NCBI RefSeq assembly: GCF_009498455.1 | Contig: NZ_CP045644.1 | Span: 7,224,088 to 7,288,087, forward strand | Length of the DNA stretch: 64,000 nt | Origin: Variovorax paradoxus | GTDB taxonomy: Bacteria > Pseudomonadota > Gammaproteobacteria > Burkholderiales > Burkholderiaceae_C | Direction: 5' to 3' | In this document: positions 1 to 48,252 of the stretch, one piece after another | How the letters are laid out: every line of letters begins with the position of its first letter | Numbering within the stretch: position 1 is the stretch's first letter | The notes under the pieces: generated by a model | Database searches by the model: none | Told to the model about the DNA's origin: nothing | The model's input: only the letters and a program-made list of their open reading frames with translations | Translations under genes and position numbers: made by a program

Positions 1-429
1 GCACACGCTGGAGCGCACAGCCGACACGCCCGGCATGTGCATCAGCGTGTGCATCAAGAACTGCGACAACGCCTCCAGGTCGCGCGCGACCACCTTGAGC
101 ACGTAGTCGAAGTCGCCGGTCACCGAGTAGCACTCCAGGATCTGCCGCATGTCGGCGATCAGGTCCTGGAACTTGGGCAGCTCGTCGACGTGGCCGCGCG
201 CCATCGTGACGTGGATGAAGGCGATCACGCCCAGCCCGATGTGGCGCGCATTCAGCCGCGCGGCGTAACCGCTGATCAGCCCCAGTTCTTCGAGCCGCCG
301 GTGGCGCCGCAGGCACTGCGCGGGCGACAGCTGGGCCACCTCAGCCAGGTCCAGGTTGGACGCACGGCCGTGCGCCTGGAGGTGCTCCAGAATCCGCCGG
401 TCGGTGCGGTCGAGTTCGATGATCTGCAA
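1..429 (-). CDS. Lrp/AsnC family transcriptional regulator (3' end outside window)
   Basis: Reverse-strand reading gives an N-terminal winged helix-turn-helix (ELDRTDRRILEHLQ, then LSPAQCLRRHRRLEELGLI) followed by the start of the RAM/AsnC ligand-binding domain, with the typical CYSVTGDFDYVLKV stretch. About 143 residues are visible and the C-terminus runs off the window. The only plausible start in frame is TTG at 429, preceded by a GGGAG ribosome site. It is divergent from the ABC importer at 641, so an inferred role is amino-acid-responsive control of that importer. Confidence 0.9.
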   Translation of the reverse strand, partial: MQIIELDRTDRRILEHLQAHGRASNLDLAEVAQLSPAQCLRRHRRLEELGLISGYAARLNARHIGLGVIAFIHVTMARGHVDELPKFQDLIADMRQILECYSVTGDFDYVLKVVARDLEALSQFLMHTLMHMPGVSAVRSSVC

Positions 430-640
430 TTTCGTCTCCCTATATGCATGATTGATGCAATTATGTTTCTTAAAGCGGGGAAAGCCCGAGGGGTTCATGC
501 ACCTTAATTGTGCAAAGTACGATCTAGACTTCGACGCGCCCGGACGGCGTTGCACCCATCCGGGCCGCTGGATGGCGCCCCAGGCTTTGCCCGCGGCTTC
601 GAACGCACCCACACCCCTTTCCCCTCCCGGAGACCCTTAC

Positions 641-1618
641 GTGAAAAACGCTTTGCTTCGCACCCCCTTCAGCGCCATGGCCCTGGCCCTCGGCGTGCTC
701 GCCGCCGCACCGGCGCTGGCCGCCGACAAGTCGGTCGCCGTGACCGCCATCGTCGAGCACCCGGCGCTGGACGCCGTGCGCGACGGCGTGAAGGAAGAGC
801 TGAAGGCCGCCGGCTACGAAGCGGGCAAGAACCTGAAGTTCAGCTACCAGAGCGCGCAGGGCAACGTGGGCACCGCCGCCCAGATCGCCCGCAAGTACGT
901 GGGCGATGCGCCCGACGTGATCGTCGCCATCGCCACGCCGTCGGCGCAGGCGACCGTGGCCGCCACCAAGACGATTCCCGTCGTGTACTCGGCCATCACC
1001 GACCCGGTGGCCGCCAAGCTGGTGAAGAACTGGGAGCCCTCGGGCACCAACGTGACGGGCGTGTCCGACCTGTCGCCGCTCGAGAAGCACATCGACCTGA
1101 TCAAGAAGGTCGTGCCGAACGCCAAGCGCATCGGCGTGATCTACAGCCCCGGCGAAGCCAACTCGGTGGCCATCGTCACAGCGCTGAAGAAAGCCGCTGC
1201 CGACGCCGGCATGACCGTGGTCGAAGCCGCCGCCGCGCGCACCGTCGACGTGCCCACCGCCGCCCAGAGCCTGGTCGGCAAGGCCGACGTGATCTACACG
1301 CCCACCGACAACAACGTGGTCTCGGCCTTCGAGGGCATCGTGAAGGTGGCGCAGCAGGCCAAGCTGCCCGTGGTGGCCGCCGACACCGCCACCGTCGAGC
1401 GCGGCGCCGTGGCCGCACTGGGCCTGAACTACACCGACATCGGCCGCCAGACCGGCAAGATCGTGGTGCGCATCCTCAAGGGCGAGAAGCCCGGCGCCAT
1501 CGCATCGCAGACCAGCACCAACTTCGAGCTGGTGGTGAACCCCAGCGCGGCCAAGCTGCAGGGCGTGACCCTGTCGGACGCGCTGCTGAAGTCGGCGAAG
1601 GTCGTCAGCACCAAGTAA
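641..1618 (+). CDS. ABC transporter substrate-binding protein (TrpX-like, ABC_sub_bind family)
   Basis: This is a 325-aa periplasmic binding protein. I chose the GTG start at 641 because it follows a GGAG ribosome site and gives a classic signal peptide (MALALGVLAAAPALAA, cleavage near residue 28). An open frame continues upstream to 452 but codes for no credible N-terminus. The mature part has the two-lobe ABC_sub_bind pattern (VAVTAIVEHPALDAVRDG, IVAIATPSAQATVAATK, GVIYSPGEANS). It is the first gene of a binding-protein, permease and ATPase operon. Family members import aromatic amino acids in Gram-positives; the substrate here is not known. Confidence 0.9.
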   Translation: MKNALLRTPFSAMALALGVLAAAPALAADKSVAVTAIVEHPALDAVRDGVKEELKAAGYEAGKNLKFSYQSAQGNVGTAAQIARKYVGDAPDVIVAIATPSAQATVAATKTIPVVYSAITDPVAAKLVKNWEPSGTNVTGVSDLSPLEKHIDLIKKVVPNAKRIGVIYSPGEANSVAIVTALKKAAADAGMTVVEAAAARTVDVPTAAQSLVGKADVIYTPTDNNVVSAFEGIVKVAQQAKLPVVAADTATVERGAVAALGLNYTDIGRQTGKIVVRILKGEKPGAIASQTSTNFELVVNPSAAKLQGVTLSDALLKSAKVVSTK

Positions 1619-1627
1619 AAGCCGCCC

Positions 1628-1674
1628 CGGCGGGCCTTCCGCTCCCGGCGCAGGCCGGGCGCCGGGGCCCGCCG
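1628..1674 (+). promoter_or_regulatory. GC-rich hairpin between binding-protein and permease genes
   Basis: Arms CGGCGGGCC (1628-1636) and GGCCCGCCG (1666-1674) are exact complements and the loop can itself fold. No U tract follows, so it is not a full terminator. Such hairpins between a binding-protein gene and its permease often stabilise the upstream message and lower downstream expression; that role is inferred here. Confidence 0.5.
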
Positions 1675-1696
1675 ACTGCGCTCCCCGGAAGCCCCC

Positions 1697-2593
1697 ATGT
1701 CCCTCATTGCTTCGCTGGGCGCCATCGAGATCGGTCTGATTTTCGGACTGGTCGCGCTGGGCGTCTTCATGTCGTTTCGCATCATCAACTTTCCCGACCT
1801 CACGGTGGACGGCAGCTTTCCGCTGGGCGCCGCCGTGGCCGCGACGCTCATCGTCGCGGGCTGGAACCCCGCCGCCGCCACGGCCGTCGCCTGCGTGGCC
1901 GGTGCCGCCTCGGGCTGGCTCACGGCCTGGCTCAACGTCAAGCTGAAGATCATGCAGCTGCTCGCGAGCATCCTGGTGATGATCGCGCTGTACTCCATCA
2001 ACCTGCGCGTGATGGGCAAGCCCAACGTGGCGCTCATCACCGAACCCACGGTGTTCAGCATGGTCAGCTTCGGCGGCATGCCCGAGCAGTGGGCCAAGCC
2101 GCTGTTGCTGCTGATCATCGTGATCGCCGCGAAGATCCTGGTCGACATGTTCTTCGCCTCCGAAGCCGGCCTGGCGATGCGCGCCACCGGCGGCAACGCG
2201 CGCATGGCGCGTGCGCAGGGCATCTCGACCGACTTCCACACGATGGCAGGCCTGGCGCTTTCCAACGCGCTGGTGGCGCTGGCCGGTGCGCTGTTCGCGC
2301 AGAGCCAGGGCACGGCCGACATCTCGATGGGCGTGGGCACGATCGTGATCGGCCTGGCCGCCGTGATCATCGGCGAGACCCTGCTGCCCGCGCGCAGCAT
2401 GGTCATCACCACGCTGGCCTGCGTGCTGGGTGCGCTGCTGTATCGCTTCTTCATCGCGATGGCGCTCAACACCGACTTCATGGGCCTGCAGGCGCAAGAC
2501 CTGAACCTCGTCACCGCCGTTCTCGTGGCGTTCGCGCTGCTGGTGCCCGCCTACAAGCGCAAGCTGGGCGGACTCTTCAAGGGGAAGAACTGA
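1697..2593 (+). CDS. ABC transporter permease (TrpY-like, BPD_transp_2)
   Basis: This is a 298-aa integral membrane protein with about eight to nine hydrophobic segments, such as IGLIFGLVALGVFMSF near the N-terminus and TAVLVAFALLVPAY near the end. It matches the branched-chain-type permease family, including the motif-like stretch FPDLTVDGSFPLGAA seen in TrpY-like permeases. Its stop overlaps the next start as TGATG, so translation is coupled to the ATPase. It forms the membrane channel for the binding protein encoded at 641. Confidence 0.9.
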   Translation: MSLIASLGAIEIGLIFGLVALGVFMSFRIINFPDLTVDGSFPLGAAVAATLIVAGWNPAAATAVACVAGAASGWLTAWLNVKLKIMQLLASILVMIALYSINLRVMGKPNVALITEPTVFSMVSFGGMPEQWAKPLLLLIIVIAAKILVDMFFASEAGLAMRATGGNARMARAQGISTDFHTMAGLALSNALVALAGALFAQSQGTADISMGVGTIVIGLAAVIIGETLLPARSMVITTLACVLGALLYRFFIAMALNTDFMGLQAQDLNLVTAVLVAFALLVPAYKRKLGGLFKGKN

Positions 2594-3387
2594 TGCTGCG
2601 CGCGCAACAACTCGAAATCACCTTCAACCCCGGCACGCCGATCGAAAACCGCGTGCTGCGTGGCCTGAGCCTGGACATTCCCACCGGCCAGTTCGTCACC
2701 GTGATCGGCTCGAACGGCGCGGGCAAGTCGACCTTTCTGAACGCGATCAGCGGCGACCTGATGGTCGACAAGGGCCGCCTCGAAATCGACGGCAAGGACG
2801 TGACCCGCCTGAACGCCTGGCAGCGCTCGGGCATGGTGGCGCGCGTGTTCCAGGACCCGATGGCCGGCACCTGCGAGGCGCTGACCATCGAGGAAAACAT
2901 GGCGCTGGCGTGGAAGCGCGGCGAGCGCAGGGGCTTCGGCTTCTCGCTCAATCGCAACCTGCGCGAACTGTTCCGCGAGAAGCTGTCGATCCTGAAGCTG
3001 GGCCTCGAAAACCGGCTGGCCGACCGCATCGGCCTGCTCTCGGGCGGCCAGCGCCAGGCCGTGAGCCTGCTGATGGCGTCGCTGCGGCCCTCGCGCATCC
3101 TGCTGCTCGACGAGCACACGGCCGCGCTCGACCCGAAGACCGCCGCCTTCGTGCTGGAGCTGACCGCCAAGATCGTCGAAGGCAGCCAGCTCACCGCGAT
3201 GATGGTCACGCACAGCATGCGCCAGGCGCTGGACTACGGTTCGCGCACCGTGATGCTGCACGAAGGCCAGGTGATCCTCGACGTGGCCGGCGACCAGCGC
3301 TCGGGCCTGGACGTGCCCGACCTGCTGCGCATGTTCGAGCAGACGCGCGGCGAGAAGCTGGACGACGACAAGCTGCTGCTCGCCTGA
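2593..3387 (+). CDS. ABC transporter ATP-binding protein (TrpZ-like)
   Basis: This is a 264-aa nucleotide-binding subunit. Walker A is GSNGAGKST at residues 39-47, the signature is LSGGQ at 149-153, and Walker B is ILLLDE at 169-174 with the D-loop TAALD. The start overlaps the permease stop (TGATG) and the stop overlaps the following GNAT start in the same way, so the four genes from 641 to 3902 probably form one transcript. It energises the importer on the cytoplasmic face. Confidence 0.93.
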   Translation: MLRAQQLEITFNPGTPIENRVLRGLSLDIPTGQFVTVIGSNGAGKSTFLNAISGDLMVDKGRLEIDGKDVTRLNAWQRSGMVARVFQDPMAGTCEALTIEENMALAWKRGERRGFGFSLNRNLRELFREKLSILKLGLENRLADRIGLLSGGQRQAVSLLMASLRPSRILLLDEHTAALDPKTAAFVLELTAKIVEGSQLTAMMVTHSMRQALDYGSRTVMLHEGQVILDVAGDQRSGLDVPDLLRMFEQTRGEKLDDDKLLLA

Positions 3388-9406: not shown

Positions 9407-10067
9407 GCCGCCGAGCGGTCGCGCTCGCGTTCCTTGTCGACGTAGGCCCAGAGCCGCTGGTTCGCGAACACGGCGTTCGGATACGGCGCCCTGCCGCGGC
9501 TGCCGTTGTAGCGGCCCAGCGTCATGAACAGGTCGCCCTTCTCGCGGTCGAGGTAGTGGCGCAGGATCACGCAGCCGAAGCGCAGGTTGGTCTGCATGTG
9601 GAACAGCTTGGCGGAGTCGCTGTCGCCGATCACGCGGGTCCAGAACGGCATCACCTGCATGTAGCCGCGCGCGCCCGCACTGGAGACGGCGAACTTGCGG
9701 AAGTTGCTCTCGACCTGGATCAGGCCCAGCACCAGGCTCACGTCGAGCCCCGAGCGCTTGGCCTCGTACCAGACAGTCTGCAAGAACTCGATGCGCGTCG
9801 ATGGGTCAGCGACCTTCTTGCGCAGGCGCTCGCTCATTTCGCCGAGCCACCGCAGGTACGCAAGGCGGGCCTCGGTGTCGGCAAACTGCGGCACCGGCGG
9901 CGCCTTGTTGTGGACGGCCGAACTCAGCGCGGTGCGCACCGAGTCGATCAGCGGCTCTTCGATCTGCGCGCCGGCCCAGGCCGTTTGCGGCAGTGACAGA
10001 GCTGTGAGGGCGCCGGCGGCGGCGCTGCCCAGCAGGCAGCTGCGTCGCGACAAGCCGCCCGCCACGC

Positions 10068-37743: not shown

Positions 37744-38775
37744 TCAGAACTCGAACTGCGGCTGCAGCTCGCGGAGGCGCTTGATCGCCACGCCGGCCGC
37801 CGCCGTGCGCGTCTCGACGCCCAGCTTCACGTACACGCGCTCCAGGTGTTTCTTGGCCGTGGCCGGGCTGCTGCCGAGGATCTCGCCGATGTCCTTGTTG
37901 GTCTTGCCCTTGACCACCCAGTACAGCACCTCGGCCTCGCGCGCCGTGAGCTTCAGGCTCAGGCTCATGGCCTCGATCACGGCGGTGTCGGACACCTCGC
38001 GCATGACGATCATCCATTCGTCGCCGGCATCGTCTTCGCCGGTCTGGCGATGCAGCCGCAGGCTCAGGCTGCGCGCGCCCTGCGCGATGGTCAGCGCGGG
38101 CGGCTCGATGCCGCGCGCGCGGGCCTCGGGCGCGTGCTGGCGCAGCCAGTCGAGCACGGCCGGCGGCGTCTCGGGCGCCTGCGTTTCGCAGTAGCGCGAC
38201 AGCAGGTCGCGCGCCAGCGCCGTCTGCCAGATCAGCCGCCCCTCGGGCAGCCGCACCGTGATGCTCGCGTAGCCGAAGGCGTCGAGCGCATTGCGTGCCT
38301 GCCCGGCCTGGTGCGCCTCCTGTCGCGCGCGGCGGGCGCCCTGCAGATGCACGTTCATGCGCGCCAGCACCTCCTTCGGCTTGATCGGCTTGGTGACGTA
38401 GTCGACCCCGCCCGCCTCGAGCGCGGCCACGAGGTGTTCAGTCTCGGTGAGGCCCGTCATGAACACGATGGGGATGTGCGCGGTGGCCGCATCGGCCTTG
38501 AGCCGGCGCGCCACCTCGAAGCCGTCGATGCCCGGCATCATGGCGTCGAGCAGCACGATGTCGGGGCGCGCCTGCGCGGCGCGCTGCAGCGCCTGCTCGC
38601 CGTTGGTGGCGATGAGCACGGTGTAGCCCGATTCGTCGAGCGCGTCGTGCAGCACGGCGAGGTTGTCGGGCACGTCGTCGACGATCAGCACCAGGTCGCC
38701 GTGGGCGCCCTGCTGCTCACGCAGCGTGCGGGCGAGCGGTGAAGTCAGCATGGTCGGTGGAGACAAGAGAGTCAT
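37744..38775 (-). CDS. Response regulator, receiver plus LuxR-type DNA-binding domain
   Basis: This 343-aa protein has a receiver at about 28-145 with acidic pair Asp33-Asp34, phospho-acceptor Asp77 in IVLLDAMMPGIDG and TKPIK. A middle segment of about 120 residues resembles a PAS-like sensor. A C-terminal LuxR helix-turn-helix follows (LTAREAEVLYWVVKGKTNKDI). Its ATG overlaps the sensor-kinase stop (ATGA), so the two are a coupled two-component pair. It probably controls the divergent urease genes or nearby transport genes. Confidence 0.92.
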   Translation of the reverse strand: MTLLSPPTMLTSPLARTLREQQGAHGDLVLIVDDVPDNLAVLHDALDESGYTVLIATNGEQALQRAAQARPDIVLLDAMMPGIDGFEVARRLKADAATAHIPIVFMTGLTETEHLVAALEAGGVDYVTKPIKPKEVLARMNVHLQGARRARQEAHQAGQARNALDAFGYASITVRLPEGRLIWQTALARDLLSRYCETQAPETPPAVLDWLRQHAPEARARGIEPPALTIAQGARSLSLRLHRQTGEDDAGDEWMIVMREVSDTAVIEAMSLSLKLTAREAEVLYWVVKGKTNKDIGEILGSSPATAKKHLERVYVKLGVETRTAAAGVAIKRLRELQPQFEF

Positions 38776-41700
38776 GCGGCGCCCTCGGCGGCTTCGGCCA
38801 GCGCGCGGCCCATGGCTTCGAACTGGAACTGGCGGGCCAGCGCGCGCTGGGCCTCGGTCCATGCAGCGCACTCGGGCTGCGCGGCGTCGATGTCGTCGAG
38901 CTGGTTCATGATGCCGCGAAAGTAGCCCAGGCTCACCGCTTCGTCGAGTGCACGCAGACGCGCCAGCGACGGCGGCTGCATCGCGCGCGGCGCGGCCACG
39001 GCGGGCGCAGGCCGCGCGGCGGTGTCGGTCCATGTCAAGGCGAGCCGGCGCTCCAGCCAGTCGAGCAGTTCGCTGTGGCGCACGGGCTTGACGAAGAAGT
39101 CTTCGGGCGCAATGCCCACGTCGTTGTCGAGCCCCTTGTCGAAAGCATTGGCCGAGACGATGGCCACCGACGCTTCGGCCAGCCCCAGCTTGCGCGCGCG
39201 TCGGATGGTTTCCCAGCCGTCGATGCCGGGCATCGCGAGGTCGACGAACATGGCGTCGGGCCGGTAACCCGCGGCGATGAGGTCCAGCGCGTCGTGCCCG
39301 CTGGCCGCGCTGCGCAGCTCGAAGCCCAGCGGCGCGAGCACATGGCCCAGCAGCTCGCGGTCGGCCTCCTCGTTGTCGACCACCAGCAGGCGCCGGCGCA
39401 CGCCCTCGTAGCCTCGCCGTGCACGCGGTGCCGGTGCGACGCGCGCGGTGCCGGCTACCGCCTCATGCACCCGCGGCAGGAACAGCCGCACGCAGAACAG
39501 CGAGCCTTCGCCCGGCGTGCTGCGCACCTTCATCTCGCCGCCCATCAGGTCGGTCAGCATCTTCGCGATGGTCAGGCCCAGGCCCGCGCCCGGCGCCGAC
39601 GACACCGCCGCGTGGCCGCGCGCAAAGGGCTCGAAGATGCGCTCGATGTCGGCGTCCGTCATGCCCGGCCCGGTGTCCTCGATCTCGATGGCGGCGAACT
39701 CGCGTGCGTAGGAAAGGCGCAAGGTCACCTGCCCCGCTGCTGTGAACTTGATCGCGTTGCCCAGCAGGTTGATGAGGATCTGGCTCACGCGCTTCTCGTC
39801 GGCGCGAACCACGTCGGGCAATGCGCCGGCCGCCTCGAAGCGAAAGCGCAGGCCCTTCTCGGCCGCCTGCAGTTCGAACATGTCGGCCAGCTCGCGCATG
39901 GCATCGGCAAAGCGCATCGGCCGCGCGTCCAGCGTGAGCTTGCCGGCCTCGATGTGGGCGATGGCCAGCGTGCCCTCGATGAGCGACAGCAGGTGCTCGC
40001 CGCCGCGCTTGATGACGGCCACCGCCTGCTGGCGGTGCGGCGGCACCGAGTGGTCTTCGCCCATGAGCTGCGCGTAGCCCAGGATGCTGTTGAGCGGCGT
40101 GCGCAGCTCGTGGCTGATGGCGCTGATGTAGCGGCTCTTAGCCTGGTTCGCGAGGTCTGCCGCGCGCCGCGCCTGGTCGGCCGCGAGCTTGGCGTGCTCG
40201 GCGATCTCACGGGCTTCTTCGGCGCTTTGCTTGGCATCCTGCAGCGCGCGGTCGGTCTCGCGGTGCAGCGCAATCTCTCGCACCAGCAGGTGGGTCTGCC
40301 GGTTCGATTCCTCTTGCGCCACCTTGCGGCTCTGGTGCGCCAGCACCAGCCACCACGCGACGATGCCCGCGATGACCAGCAGCGCCATGTAGGCCTTGAG
40401 AAACCCCGAACGCAATGAGGCCTGCTGCACGGCGGCCAGCGCCCCGGCCACGTCGGCCTGTGCCGCCAGCGCGAGCGCGCCCTCGCTCAGGGCCCGCAGC
40501 TCCTGCTGGTAGAGCACGCCGAACACCACGGCCAGCAGCGGCACGATGACCAGCATCAGCAGCAGGAAGTGCCCGAGCCCGGTGTCAAGGTAGCGCCAGC
40601 TGCGGCGCGGCAGCAGCCAGCGCAGCACGCCAGACCACTGCGCCGACAGGCTCGCGTGCGGTTTGCACAGATCGCCGCAGCGCGCATCGAGCGTGCAGCA
40701 CAGCGAGCAGATCGCGCCCTGGTAGGCCGGGCAGTGCGCCATGTCGGGCCCTTCGTACTCGCGATCGCAGATCACGCAGTGCTGCACCTTCAATCGCTGG
40801 TAGCTGCCGCCGTCGTCCGACGACGATTCGACCCGCGTCCAGCGCACCTTGCGCCCGCCCGCGGCCGGCGCGAACAGCACCGAGCCGCCGGCGTCGGACG
40901 TGCGCGCGAGGTAGTACTTGCCGCCCGTGGCCCACGCCAGCAGCGGTGACGCGACCAGCGCCGTGCCGAGCGCGATCAGCGCCGAGAACGCCTGCGCCAG
41001 CGGCCCGAACACACCGAGGTGCGCCGTGATCGACAGCACCGACGCCAGCGCCATCGCACCCACACCCACCGGGTTGATGTCCCACAGGTGCGCGCGCTTG
41101 AACTCGATGCCCGGCGGCGACAGCCCCAGCGGCTTGTTGATGACCAGGTCGGCCACCACGGCCATCATCCAGGCGATGGCGATGTTGGCGAACAGCCCGA
41201 GCACGTCGCCCAGCGCCTCGAACACGTTCATCTCCATCAGCATGAAGGCGATGAGCGCGTTGAACACCACCCACACCACGCGCCCCGGGTGGCTGTGCGC
41301 CACGCGCGAGAAGAAATTGCTCCAGGCCAGCGAGCCCGCGTAGGCGTTCGTCACGTTGATCTTCAGCTGCGAGATCACCACGAACAGCGCCGTCGCTGCC
41401 ACCGCCCAGCCGTAGTTCGGAAACACGTACTCGTAGGCCGCCAGGTACATCTGGTTCGGATCGACCGCGCGCTCGACCGGCACCATGTGCGTGATCGCCA
41501 GGTAGGCCAGCGCAGCCCCGCCCAGCATCTTGACCACCCCAGCACCACCCAGCCCGGCCCGCCCGCCAGCACGCCGGCCCACCAGCGGCGCGCCGTGCCC
41601 GCGGTGCGCGCCGGCATGAAGCGCAGATAGTCGGCCTGCTCGCCCATCTGCGTGATGAGCGCGATGCCGACCGTCAACGCAGCACCGAACAGGTGCAAAT

Positions 41701-42420
41701 TGAATCCCTGCGCGCCCGGCTTCGCCCCGCTGTAGTGCGTGATACCCGCGAACGCACCAGGATCGCGCACAAGCACGAACACAAAGGGCACCACCAGCAT
41801 CAGCAGCCACAGCGGCTGTGTCCACAGCTGCAGCCGGCTGATCACCGACACCCGTGCGTGACCAGCGGAATCACCACCAGCGCGCACACCAGGTAGCCCC
41901 ACACCGGCGGAATGCCCAGCGCCAGCTCGAGCGCATAGGCCATCACGGCCGCCTCGAGCGCAAAGAAGATGAAGGTGAAGCTCGCGTAGATCAGCGAGGT
42001 GAGCGTGGAGCCGATGTAGCCGAAGCCCGCGCCGCGCGTGAGCAAATCCATGTCCAGCCCGTAGCGCGCCGCGTACACGCTGATCGGCAGCCCTGCCAGG
42101 AAGATGATGAGCCCCGTCACGAGGATCGCCCAGAAGGCATTGGCGAAGCCGTACTGCACCAGCAGCGTGGCGCCGACCGCCTCCAGCACCAGGAACGACG
42201 CCGCCCCGAAGGCCGTGTTGGCCACCCGCCATTCGGACCATTTGCGAAAGCGCTGCGGCGTGTAGCGCAGCGCGTAGTCCTCGAGCGTTTCGCTCGCGAC
42301 CCAGCTGTTGTAGTCGCGCCGCACCTTCACGATGCGCTGGGGCGCGTCGTCGGGAAGGAGGGGTGCGTCGGCAGGGTTCACACCGTTTCGGTGCAGCTTC
42401 CGTGCCACCGGGTACGTCAT
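38772..42420 (-). CDS. NCS1-type transporter fused to Cys-rich module, histidine kinase and receiver; two frame changes
   Basis: Conceptual repair gives about 1216 aa. Residues 1 to about 480 are a complete NCS1 (purine, cytosine, uracil, allantoin) permease, for example [19 protein letters not shown] and [18 protein letters not shown] cysteine/histidine cluster follows at about 546-586 ([18 protein letters not shown] ... CSLCC ... CGDLCKPH), then two more helices, a coiled linker, HisKA with His near 770 ([18 protein letters not shown]), HATPase ([35 protein letters not shown]) and a receiver with Asp near 1060. Missing Gs in runs at 41851 and about 41539 explain both shifts. It is divergent from ureA by 78 bp and coupled to the LuxR regulator. 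Confidence 0.85.
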
Positions 42421-42498
42421 TTGGCGAACAGGGCACGACTGTTGCAAAGAGATTGCCTTGCCCATAATCACCGACCGCCACCCGACGAAGCCGCCGCC

Positions 42499-42801
42499 AT
42501 GGAACTGACCCCGCGCGAAAAAGACAAGCTGCTGATCTTCACGGCCGCCCTGCTGGCCGAACGCCGCAAGGCACGCGGGCTCAAGCTCAACTACCCCGAA
42601 GCCATCGCGCTGATCACCGCCGCCGTGATGGAAGGCGCCCGCGACGGCAAGAGCGTCGCCGAGCTGATGAGCGAGGGCCGCAGCGTGCTCACCCGCGCCG
42701 ACGTGATGGACGGCATCGCCGACATGATTCCCGACATCCAGGTCGAAGCCAGCTTTCCCGACGGCACCAAGCTCGTGACCGTCCACCAGCCGATCGTCTG
42801 A
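42499..42801 (+). CDS. ureA: Urease subunit gamma
   Basis: This 100-aa protein, exactly the family length, begins [20 protein letters not shown] and contains [26 protein letters not shown]. It is a structural subunit of the nickel urease that hydrolyses urea to ammonia and carbamate. It is the first gene of the cluster here; ureD, which normally precedes it, is not in the 78-bp gap or elsewhere in the window. Confidence 0.97.
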
Positions 42802-42833: not shown

Positions 42834-43430
42834 ATGCGCTTCGCAAAGACTTCCGCCCTGCTCGTCACCCTCCTGCTGCCGCTGGCCGCCAGCGCCCACA
42901 CCGGCGTGGACGGCGGCGTGCACCACGGCTTTGTCACCGGCTTCATGCACCCGCTGACCGGCGCCGATCACCTCGCGGCGATGGTCGCGGTCGGCCTGTG
43001 GAGCGCGCTGGTCGCGCGCCGGGCCTGGCCCGACCTGCTGTGGGCGCCGCTGGCCTTCGCAGCCATGCTGCTCGCGGGAGCGCTGGCCGGGCTGGCCGGC
43101 GTGCAGCTGCCGGCCGTCGAGCCGATGATCGCCGCCTCGCTGCTGGTGCTGGGCCTGCTGGTCGCCACGCGCGTGCACCTGCCGGCCGGCGTTGCCATGG
43201 CCGTCGTGGGCCTGTTCGCCGTTTTCCATGGCGTGGCACACGGCCACGAGCTGGCGGGCGAACACGGCGCCGCCCTCACGCTGGCTGGCATGGTCAGCGC
43301 CACGCTGCTGCTGCACACCGCCGGCATCGCGCTGGGCTGGGCGCTGCGCCATGCCAACGCGTGGCTGCCACGCGTGGCCGGCGCTGCCGTCGTCGCCCTC
43401 GGCGCCACGCTGCTGGCCCAGGCGATCTGA
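42834..43430 (+). CDS. hupE: HupE/UreJ family nickel transporter-like protein
   Basis: This 198-aa membrane protein has a signal-like first segment, about six hydrophobic helices and the HupE/UreJ metal motif [12 protein letters not shown], with FHGVAHGHE further on. Relatives carry nickel (or cobalt) into the cell. Placement between ureA and ureB is typical of this bacterial family and supports a role in supplying nickel to urease. Confidence 0.92.
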
Positions 43431-43745: not shown

Positions 43746-45464
<1,719 letters not shown>

Positions 45465-45467
45465 ATG

Positions 45468-45872
45468 TCAGGCGTGTTGCGACACCACGCGATCGCGAAT
45501 CCATTGGGCGAAAGTTTCCTCCTCGACCTCGCCCGCAGCGAGGGCGAGCACCTGGAGCACGCACTCCTCGTCCGAGGCAGTGAACTCGAATCCGTTGAGA
45601 TCGAGAAACACCTCCATCGCCACGAATGCCGTCCGCTTGTTGCCATCCACGAAGGGATGGTTGCGCGCGATGCCAAACGCGTAGCAGGCGGCCAGCGCCG
45701 CGGCATCGGGGGATTCGTACAGCGCCCGATGCTGAGGACGGCCCATCGCGGAAGCGAGCATGCCTTCGTCGCGAATTCCCGCGGGCCCGCCGTGTTCGGC
45801 GAGCTGTTCCTCGTGCACCAACGCCATGAGTTTGGCGCTGAGCCACATCCAAGGCTGGTTGGCGGCCGTCAT
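45468..45872 (-). CDS. doc: Doc-type toxin (Fic/Doc family)
   Basis: This 134-aa protein has the Doc active-site motif HPFVDGNKRTAF (core H-x-F-x-D-G-N-K-R). Doc phosphorylates elongation factor Tu and stops translation. The ATG overlaps the stop of the antitoxin gene (ATGA), as in toxin-antitoxin pairs. It is convergent with ureC, with only 3 bp between stops, so the module sits inside the urease cluster. Confidence 0.92.
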   Translation of the reverse strand: MTAANQPWMWLSAKLMALVHEEQLAEHGGPAGIRDEGMLASAMGRPQHRALYESPDAAALAACYAFGIARNHPFVDGNKRTAFVAMEVFLDLNGFEFTASDEECVLQVLALAAGEVEEETFAQWIRDRVVSQHA

Positions 45873-47603: not shown

Positions 47604-48252
47604 ATGACCTCCGCCCTGCACCACATCCCGAACCGCACCAAGAAGCTCCTGCCGCTGCGCGTGGGCATCGGCGGCCCCGTCGGCTCGGGCAAGACCACCT
47701 TGCTCGAAATGCTCTGCAAGGCGATGCGCGACAAGTACGACCTCGTCGCCATCACCAACGACATCTACACCAAGGAAGACCAGCGCCTGCTCACCGTGGC
47801 CGGCGCGCTGCCGGCCGAGCGCATCATGGGCGTGGAAACCGGCGGCTGCCCGCACACCGCGATCCGCGAAGACGCGTCGATCAACCTCGAGGCCATCGAC
47901 CGCATGCTCGAAGACTTTCCCGACGCCGACATCGTGTTCGTCGAATCGGGCGGCGACAACCTCGCGGCCACCTTCAGCCCCGAGCTGTCGGACCTCACGA
48001 TCTACGTGATCGACGTGGCGGCCGGCGAAAAAATCCCGCGCAAGGGCGGTCCCGGCATCACCAAGAGCGACCTGTTCGTCATCAACAAGACCGACCTCGC
48101 GCCCTACGTCGGCGCGAACCTCGATGTGATGGAACAGGACACCCAACGCATGCGCCGCCAGCGCCCCTACGTGATGACCAACCTCAAGACGCACACGGGC
48201 GTCGCCGAGGTGGTGGCCTTCATCGAGGCCGGGCATGCTCACCGCCGCCTGA
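47604..48252 (+). CDS. ureG: Urease accessory GTPase UreG, frame change near the 3' end
   Basis: P-loop GPVGSGKT (24-31), the metal-binding Cys82-Pro-His84 in [11 protein letters not shown], and [13 protein letters not shown] identify the SIMIBI-class GTPase that powers nickel insertion. As sequenced the frame runs past its end to 48674, antisense to the pirin gene. A shift near 48231 brings in GMLTAA and TGA at 48250-48252, giving about 215 aa. Confidence 0.94.

Follow-up and report, generated by a model that had tools for sequence, protein, structure and literature searches.

The window is a 64,000-nucleotide stretch of the Variovorax paradoxus genome (NCBI RefSeq assembly GCF_009498455.1, contig NZ_CP045644.1). 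It carries, beside urease genes, a gene in which an NCS1-like permease domain is joined to a hybrid histidine kinase; this gene is called the sensor below. It lies at 38772-42420 on the minus strand, as the original prediction placed it. It is followed by the gene of a partner response regulator and is divergent to ureA. The residues below are numbered according to P0001, the orthologue from Variovorax boronicumulans. The features of the sensor and its partner are the following.

38772-42420, minus strand: sensor gene (NCS1-like permease, cysteine-rich stretch, extra transmembrane (TM) helices, HisKA, HATPase_c, REC), with an interrupted frame in the window copy
40908-42348 (approximate owing to indels), minus strand: NCS1-like membrane domain, P0001 residues 25-505, from modelling the structure of the relative L130 and comparing folds
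40662-40778, minus strand: cysteine-rich stretch with eight conserved Cys, P0001 C549-C586; possible metal-binding knuckle
40329-40592, minus strand: further hydrophobic region preceding the kinase, P0001 residues 611-698, from hydropathy and the model
39942-40142, minus strand: HisKA (Pfam on P0001), with the phospho-accepting His771 at 40110-40112
39477-39800, minus strand: HATPase_c (Pfam on P0001)
39057-39386, minus strand: REC domain (Pfam on P0001), with Asp1061 at 39240-39242
37744-38775, minus strand: partner response regulator, REC and LuxR-type (GerE) helix-turn-helix; its start overlaps the kinase stop (ATGA)

The window takes up the final 64 kb of a single contig of 7.29 Mb. Its positions 13106-64000 duplicate contig bases 1-50889 with 99.73% identity; the alignment has 8 mismatches and 91 gaps, the latter adding up to 128 bases. 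This stretch is an untrimmed overlap, probably of a circular chromosome. In the window copy the sensor frame is interrupted near 41.5 kb and near 41.85 kb, and in the second copy once, at a different site near the first. These breaks can be explained by errors present in both copies of the overlap, and given the 91 gaps, other frame breaks of the window, such as that in the ureF region, should also be doubted. P0001, which shares 98% identity with the intact piece across 91% of its length, is a single unbroken frame of 1216 amino acids (aa); the original prediction, with its repaired product, had already implied the frame breaks. The sensor gene was found in all 89 genus genomes searched, the genus being recognized as Variovorax through near-identical proteins that carry names; 17 of the best matches read through one TGA codon or two (located ahead of the start in G009/L013), in five a single open frame is reported in two parts, and three are incomplete.

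HisKA, HATPase_c and Response_reg exceed the Pfam cut-offs both in the window sensor and in the whole orthologue. With the phospho-acceptor His in HisKA, the HATPase_c domain and the Asp in REC, the protein is a hybrid sensor histidine kinase, and the predicted kinase and receiver domains are borne out. The overlap with the LuxR-type regulator is confirmed as well, since the kinase stop and the regulator start share ATGA; a regulator of related type lies downstream of the sensor in 67/71 and 35/38 complete loci. A Pfam search of P0001 detected no HPt domain. No Pfam domain was found in the interval between its permease and kinase either, although Pfam was not confirmed to hold a STAC model. 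In this interval, the cysteine-rich stretch and the TM helices fill the position where SLC5-STAC kinases have STAC. Region 611-698 comprises two helices in the model of L130 and a third hydrophobic stretch (647-666) seen by hydropathy. Three features were absent from the original prediction: the eight-cysteine stretch, the additional TM helices ahead of the kinase and a sigma54-like element before ureA.

The assignment of the membrane domain to NCS1 rests on its fold. Searches of Pfam, NCBIfam and PDB sequences gave no NCS1 match for the sensor, and neither P0001 nor three relatives had a direct PF02133 match listed at E values up to 1. The structure model of L130 and the fold comparison indicate the LeuT fold in its NCS1 variant. 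The nearest NCS1 folds are those of the permeases CodB (cytosine), aligned over 396 residues (chain 400) with 17% identity, and Mhp1 (hydantoin), aligned over 429 of 456 residues with 14% identity. Unlike these two, the sensor has no direct PF02133 match, carries a C-terminal Cys stretch and stands among urea or amide genes. A sequence tie to PF02133 is nevertheless established through intermediates: the free-standing permease L052 belongs to PF02133 (31.8 bits, cut-off 23.5) and is 52% identical to the permease L056, which is itself unmatched and retrieves sensors at 46-58%. The predicted fusion of an NCS1 permease to a hybrid kinase is supported: the domain search of the 1216-aa product finds the kinase and receiver domains, and the NCS1 part is recognized by its fold.

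The sensor is divergent to ureA at a distance of up to 300 bp in 81 of the 89 genus genomes (median gap 92); in five others the two genes are divergent within 7 kb, and in three they lie on separate contigs. The linkage to urease expected from a survey of homologues is therefore conserved in the genus. On the other side of the divergent region the window contains the following features.

42431-42446, plus strand: sigma54-like promoter element GGGCACGACTGTTGCA, conserved in the genus and placed 68 bp ahead of the ureA start
42499-42801, plus strand: ureA (urease gamma subunit), reading away from the sensor
42834-43430, plus strand: HupE/UreJ
43746-45464, plus strand: ureC, urease alpha subunit
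47604-48200, plus strand: ureG (part read)

The urease cluster contains, between ureC and ureE, a Fic/Doc-family gene of the opposite strand (45468-45872, minus strand). The gene ureD (C1:6965824) and the best urtA match (C1:6998580) are located about 260-300 kb from ureABC in the same genome. The window genome has both types of sensor distinguished below, one by ureA and a paralogue (C1:5786396-5789755) by an amide cluster. At a further locus of this genome (L002), a PF02133 NCS1 permease (1435-2760, plus strand) directly follows an aliphatic-amidase-like gene (365-1402, plus strand; named by eye), which makes a second NCS1-amide link.

Outside the genus, a sensor-like fusion was found in 65 of 397 sampled Pseudomonadota genomes, with 73 sensor places listed; here the fusion was judged by a frame of at least 894 aa (fragments of the window gene excepted), with no domain scan of each. 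Genes of the urt, ure, fmdA and amiE types within flanks of about 10 kb served as urea and amide markers. They flank 38 of 40 loci chosen by hand from the 73 places. Among 20 other kinase loci used as a control, one of which was merely 8 kb long, a single locus had a marker, a UrtA-like match. Markers are also present at 72 of the 80 nearest relatives (the best 80 of 585, a set biased to the amide branch, whose row headed the query), with 61 amide-type and 14 urea-type contexts by stringent matches, overlaps included. For the amide-branch neighbours tested, the NCBIfam labels are UrtA-type binding protein, formamidase FmdA and aliphatic amidase. The operons differ between hosts. The cluster urtABCDE-ureDABC is divergent to the sensor on a Methylosinus trichosporium plasmid, as are fmdA and AmiS/UreI in Paracoccus seriniphilus; a Methylovirgula locus combines fmdA, sensor, regulator, free permease and amiE. 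On the Klebsiella pneumoniae plasmid pKP1-19 (L171) the sensor is divergent to a urt-type ABC cluster; this is the one record opened of 340 Klebsiella plasmid records that match the sensor. In Hylemonella (L074), an amide-branch and a urea-branch sensor are situated 6.8 kb apart, at 10001 and 16828 (plus strand). In databases the relatives are named hybrid kinase, ATP-binding protein or purine-cytosine permease-like.

This comparative evidence points to urea as the ligand of the window member and to short amides (formamide, aliphatic amides) as those of its sisters. We consider it probable that the sensor is a receptor kinase for small amides, derived from a transporter, and that the window member most likely recognizes urea. 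A purely positional link, in which the pair controls other genes and is next to ureA as a result of genome history, seems very improbable to us. The sigma54-like ureA promoter, present in 18/18 readable genus loci besides the window (L006, of 19, is unreadable), could account for the control of ureA without the sensor pair. Against this stand the repetition of the linkage in further classes and in distinct branches whose operons differ, and a co-occurrence with FmdA that holds genome-wide. In the same 397 genomes, FmdA (PF03069, E 1e-60) was found in 44 and urease (PF00449, E 1e-25) in 179; 43 of the 44 FmdA genomes contain the sensor, whereas FmdA occurs in one of the 332 sensor-less genomes. 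FmdA or urease is present in 64 of the 65 sensor genomes. Urease is also present in 117 sensor-less genomes, so urease alone does not require the sensor.

The phylogeny of the permease domains agrees with a receptor for urea and short amides. An unrooted tree of 141 domains was constructed by a quick method, after 13 near-identical genus rows and 5 rows cut at contig ends had been dropped and L052 relabelled urea from its ureG neighbour. Urea and amide contexts cluster on this tree: 19 changes are required, compared with a mean of 45 after shuffling, and none of 200 shuffles gave a value as low. The window clade (26 rows, SH-aLRT 99), which is mostly a betaproteobacterial urea branch, includes 21 rows with a urea context, three with neither context and two with an amide context. 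One of the latter is the Hylemonella row, where the amide genes adjoin the second, amide-branch sensor of the locus. Further urea groups elsewhere on the tree indicate that the ligand or the partner operon switched more than once. At residue 420, in TM10, 92 of 94 amide-linked rows have Gly and 37 of 38 window-clade rows do not; this residue is also non-Gly in three smaller urea groups (5/5, 4/4 and 2/2 rows) and Gly in 2/3 and 1/1 rows of two other urea groups, so as a specificity position it is a lead at most.

Some loci encode permeases with the same domain and Cys tail as the sensor but without the kinase; their coordinates, given within each locus, are as follows.

L052, 1480-3102, minus strand: after ureG; four-Cys tail
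L056, 1456-3132, plus strand: before fmdA; full Cys tail
L169, 5965-7614, plus strand: beside a sensor pair and amiE; full Cys tail
L170, 5663-7270, plus strand: within a urease cluster; four-Cys tail
L172, from about 8019, plus strand: divergent to a sensor; four-Cys tail
L253, 7914-9557, plus strand: divergent to fmdA; four-Cys tail

Four free-standing permeases form one clade (97), which, the tree being unrooted, is compatible with a single fusion. By their neighbours, these sisters probably carry urea or formamide. Some of them are annotated as hypothetical or, on plasmids, as allantoin permease. Together with the closest folds, CodB and Mhp1, and one member near xanthine dehydrogenase genes, this annotation speaks for another NCS1-type ligand (allantoin, hydantoin, uracil or a purine), with the urease link arising via urea as a breakdown product. 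On the markers counted, those for urea and amides, this appears improbable, because sister sensors and permeases are linked to formamidase and aliphatic amidase, which are not known to take part in the purine and pyrimidine routes. Of the nitrogen compounds originally suggested as ligands, urea is therefore favored for the window member, and allantoin or a pyrimidine is less likely.

On the architecture, fold, family spread, urea and amide linkage, co-occurrence and sister neighbors computed here, a scheme can be drawn in which we infer the ligand, the direction of the switch, the metal, the phosphotransfer route, the target promoters and any remaining transport. The compound would be bound by the NCS1-fold permease domain, and the resulting shape change would be relayed by the Cys-rich stretch, which may bind zinc, and by the additional TM helices to the coiled coil and the HisKA dimer, where it would set autophosphorylation at His771. 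The phosphate would pass to the REC-LuxR regulator, whose start overlaps the end of the kinase gene. The REC domain of the kinase itself probably modulates this flow, as it is absent from some members: in the cyanobacterial members L119 and L137, HisKA and HATPase_c were found and no REC was reported, and the analyzed piece of L129 has solely a HisKA match, just under the cut-off. These three members have no urea or amide marker genes nearby. The regulator would adjust uptake and hydrolysis of the compound, through urt and ure genes in the urea branch and an amide-type urt cluster with fmdA or amiE in the sister branch.

As to the target promoters, the genus sigma54-like elements, scored against the sigma54 consensus, reach 11 of 12 in 17 loci and 10 in one, and lie 68-71 bp from the ureA start in 15 loci and 27-28 bp in three; the background of a match at score 11 is 0.35% per 150 bp. 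Among 15 further loci the ureA start could be located in eight; six of these have an element of score 10-11 within 250 bp, and the other two gave 7 and none. In the wider family, elements scoring at least 10 of 12 are directed towards the sensor in 23/56 loci and towards the neighbor in 4/56, a comparison that is a lead at most, with regions of uneven length and 56 of the 80 loci usable. Possibly there are two layers, a general nitrogen control through sigma54 and a ligand-specific control by the sensor pair. Of the route originally predicted, via the LuxR regulator to the divergent urease cluster, the partner regulator stands and direct control of ureA is doubtful. The pair may signal to urease indirectly or act on another operon, for which the distant urtA and ureD are candidates.

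Several observations weigh against a urea- or amide-specific receptor. The doubt about direct action on ureA is one, since the promoter is sigma54-like and a LuxR-type regulator is not known to be a sigma54 activator. Markers are missing at 2 of the 40 sampled loci (L200 and L223, the latter an 11 kb stretch) and at 8 of the 80 nearest ones, although some of these are short contigs. L132 falls within the urea clade yet stands beside amide genes and is a real exception. The Azospirillum lipoferum plasmid member L174 has no marker within about 10 kb, and the xanthine dehydrogenase genes near it make other ligands possible. The shared descent of the genomes means that Fisher p-values overstate independence; the counts are unaffected. 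In two of six between-branch comparisons, the membrane domain is ahead of the kinase by only 1 point. Finally, work on CbrA, which binds and transports histidine (PMC7096432, PMC13022988), indicates that the signal may enter elsewhere than through the fused transporter, as CbrA signals even with its SLC5 part removed or swapped (PMC7096432).

The kinase could accordingly respond to a general nitrogen signal, or to a cytosolic metabolite or metal at the Cys stretch, with the permease as an anchor or transporter. Urease requires nickel, the eight conserved Cys could bind a metal, and the sigma54-like elements suggest nitrogen control. We regard this as unlikely. The permease is conserved above the kinase in 6/6 between-branch comparisons, by up to 16 points, and is also more conserved than REC; its tree tracks the neighboring operon, urea or amide. 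Moreover, the aligned amide-branch sensors keep all eight Cys, and formamidase and aliphatic amidase are not known to be nickel enzymes. A urea or short-amide receptor thus remains the preferred reading. Its wide form, to which we give even weight, is a transceptor class: NCS1-derived urea/formamide permeases with a C-terminal metal-binding knuckle would have been fused once to a histidine kinase and become dedicated urea or short-amide receptors, the ligand and operon changing several times.

Permease-fused kinases are already known with SLC5 (CbrA, CrbS, RpuS) and Amt (Ks-Amt5) domains. The SLC5-STAC kinases likewise join a LeuT-fold permease to a kinase, and CrbS and RpuS resemble the present sensor in being hybrids paired with a regulator of LuxR type (PMC9100948). 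Ks-Amt5 similarly recruits a nitrogen transporter as the sensor of a kinase (PMC5764959) but differs in its Amt domain, in a kinase part described as DHp and CA only, and in that it is reported to bind ammonium without translocating it. A full-text search of the openly available literature turned up no published account of an NCS1-fused sensor kinase, so the scarcity of such descriptions noted originally holds, and the NCS1-Cys class is new as far as this search found. Likewise, the accessible parts of PMC8534201, PMC8467165 and PMC12918730 contain nothing on the family. In the text available, a 1131 aa histidine kinase with a CheY-like receiver by UrtA (PMC2907700) and a histidine kinase with a LuxR regulator by a second urtABCDE (PMC13296017) pass unremarked; judging by size and neighbors, both appear to belong to the sensor family.

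The NCS1 class, with its own Cys linker, is a third type of permease-fused sensor beside SLC5 and Amt. The ligand hypothesis (urea, formamide, short amides) is strong and can be checked with ordinary reporters. If true, this would be, as far as we found, the first dedicated bacterial urea or formamide receptor, with its free-standing sisters as a new type of urea/formamide permease; some "allantoin permease" annotations beside urease genes may really denote urea carriers. Urea is a main nitrogen fertilizer, and the finding bears on how bacteria detect it.

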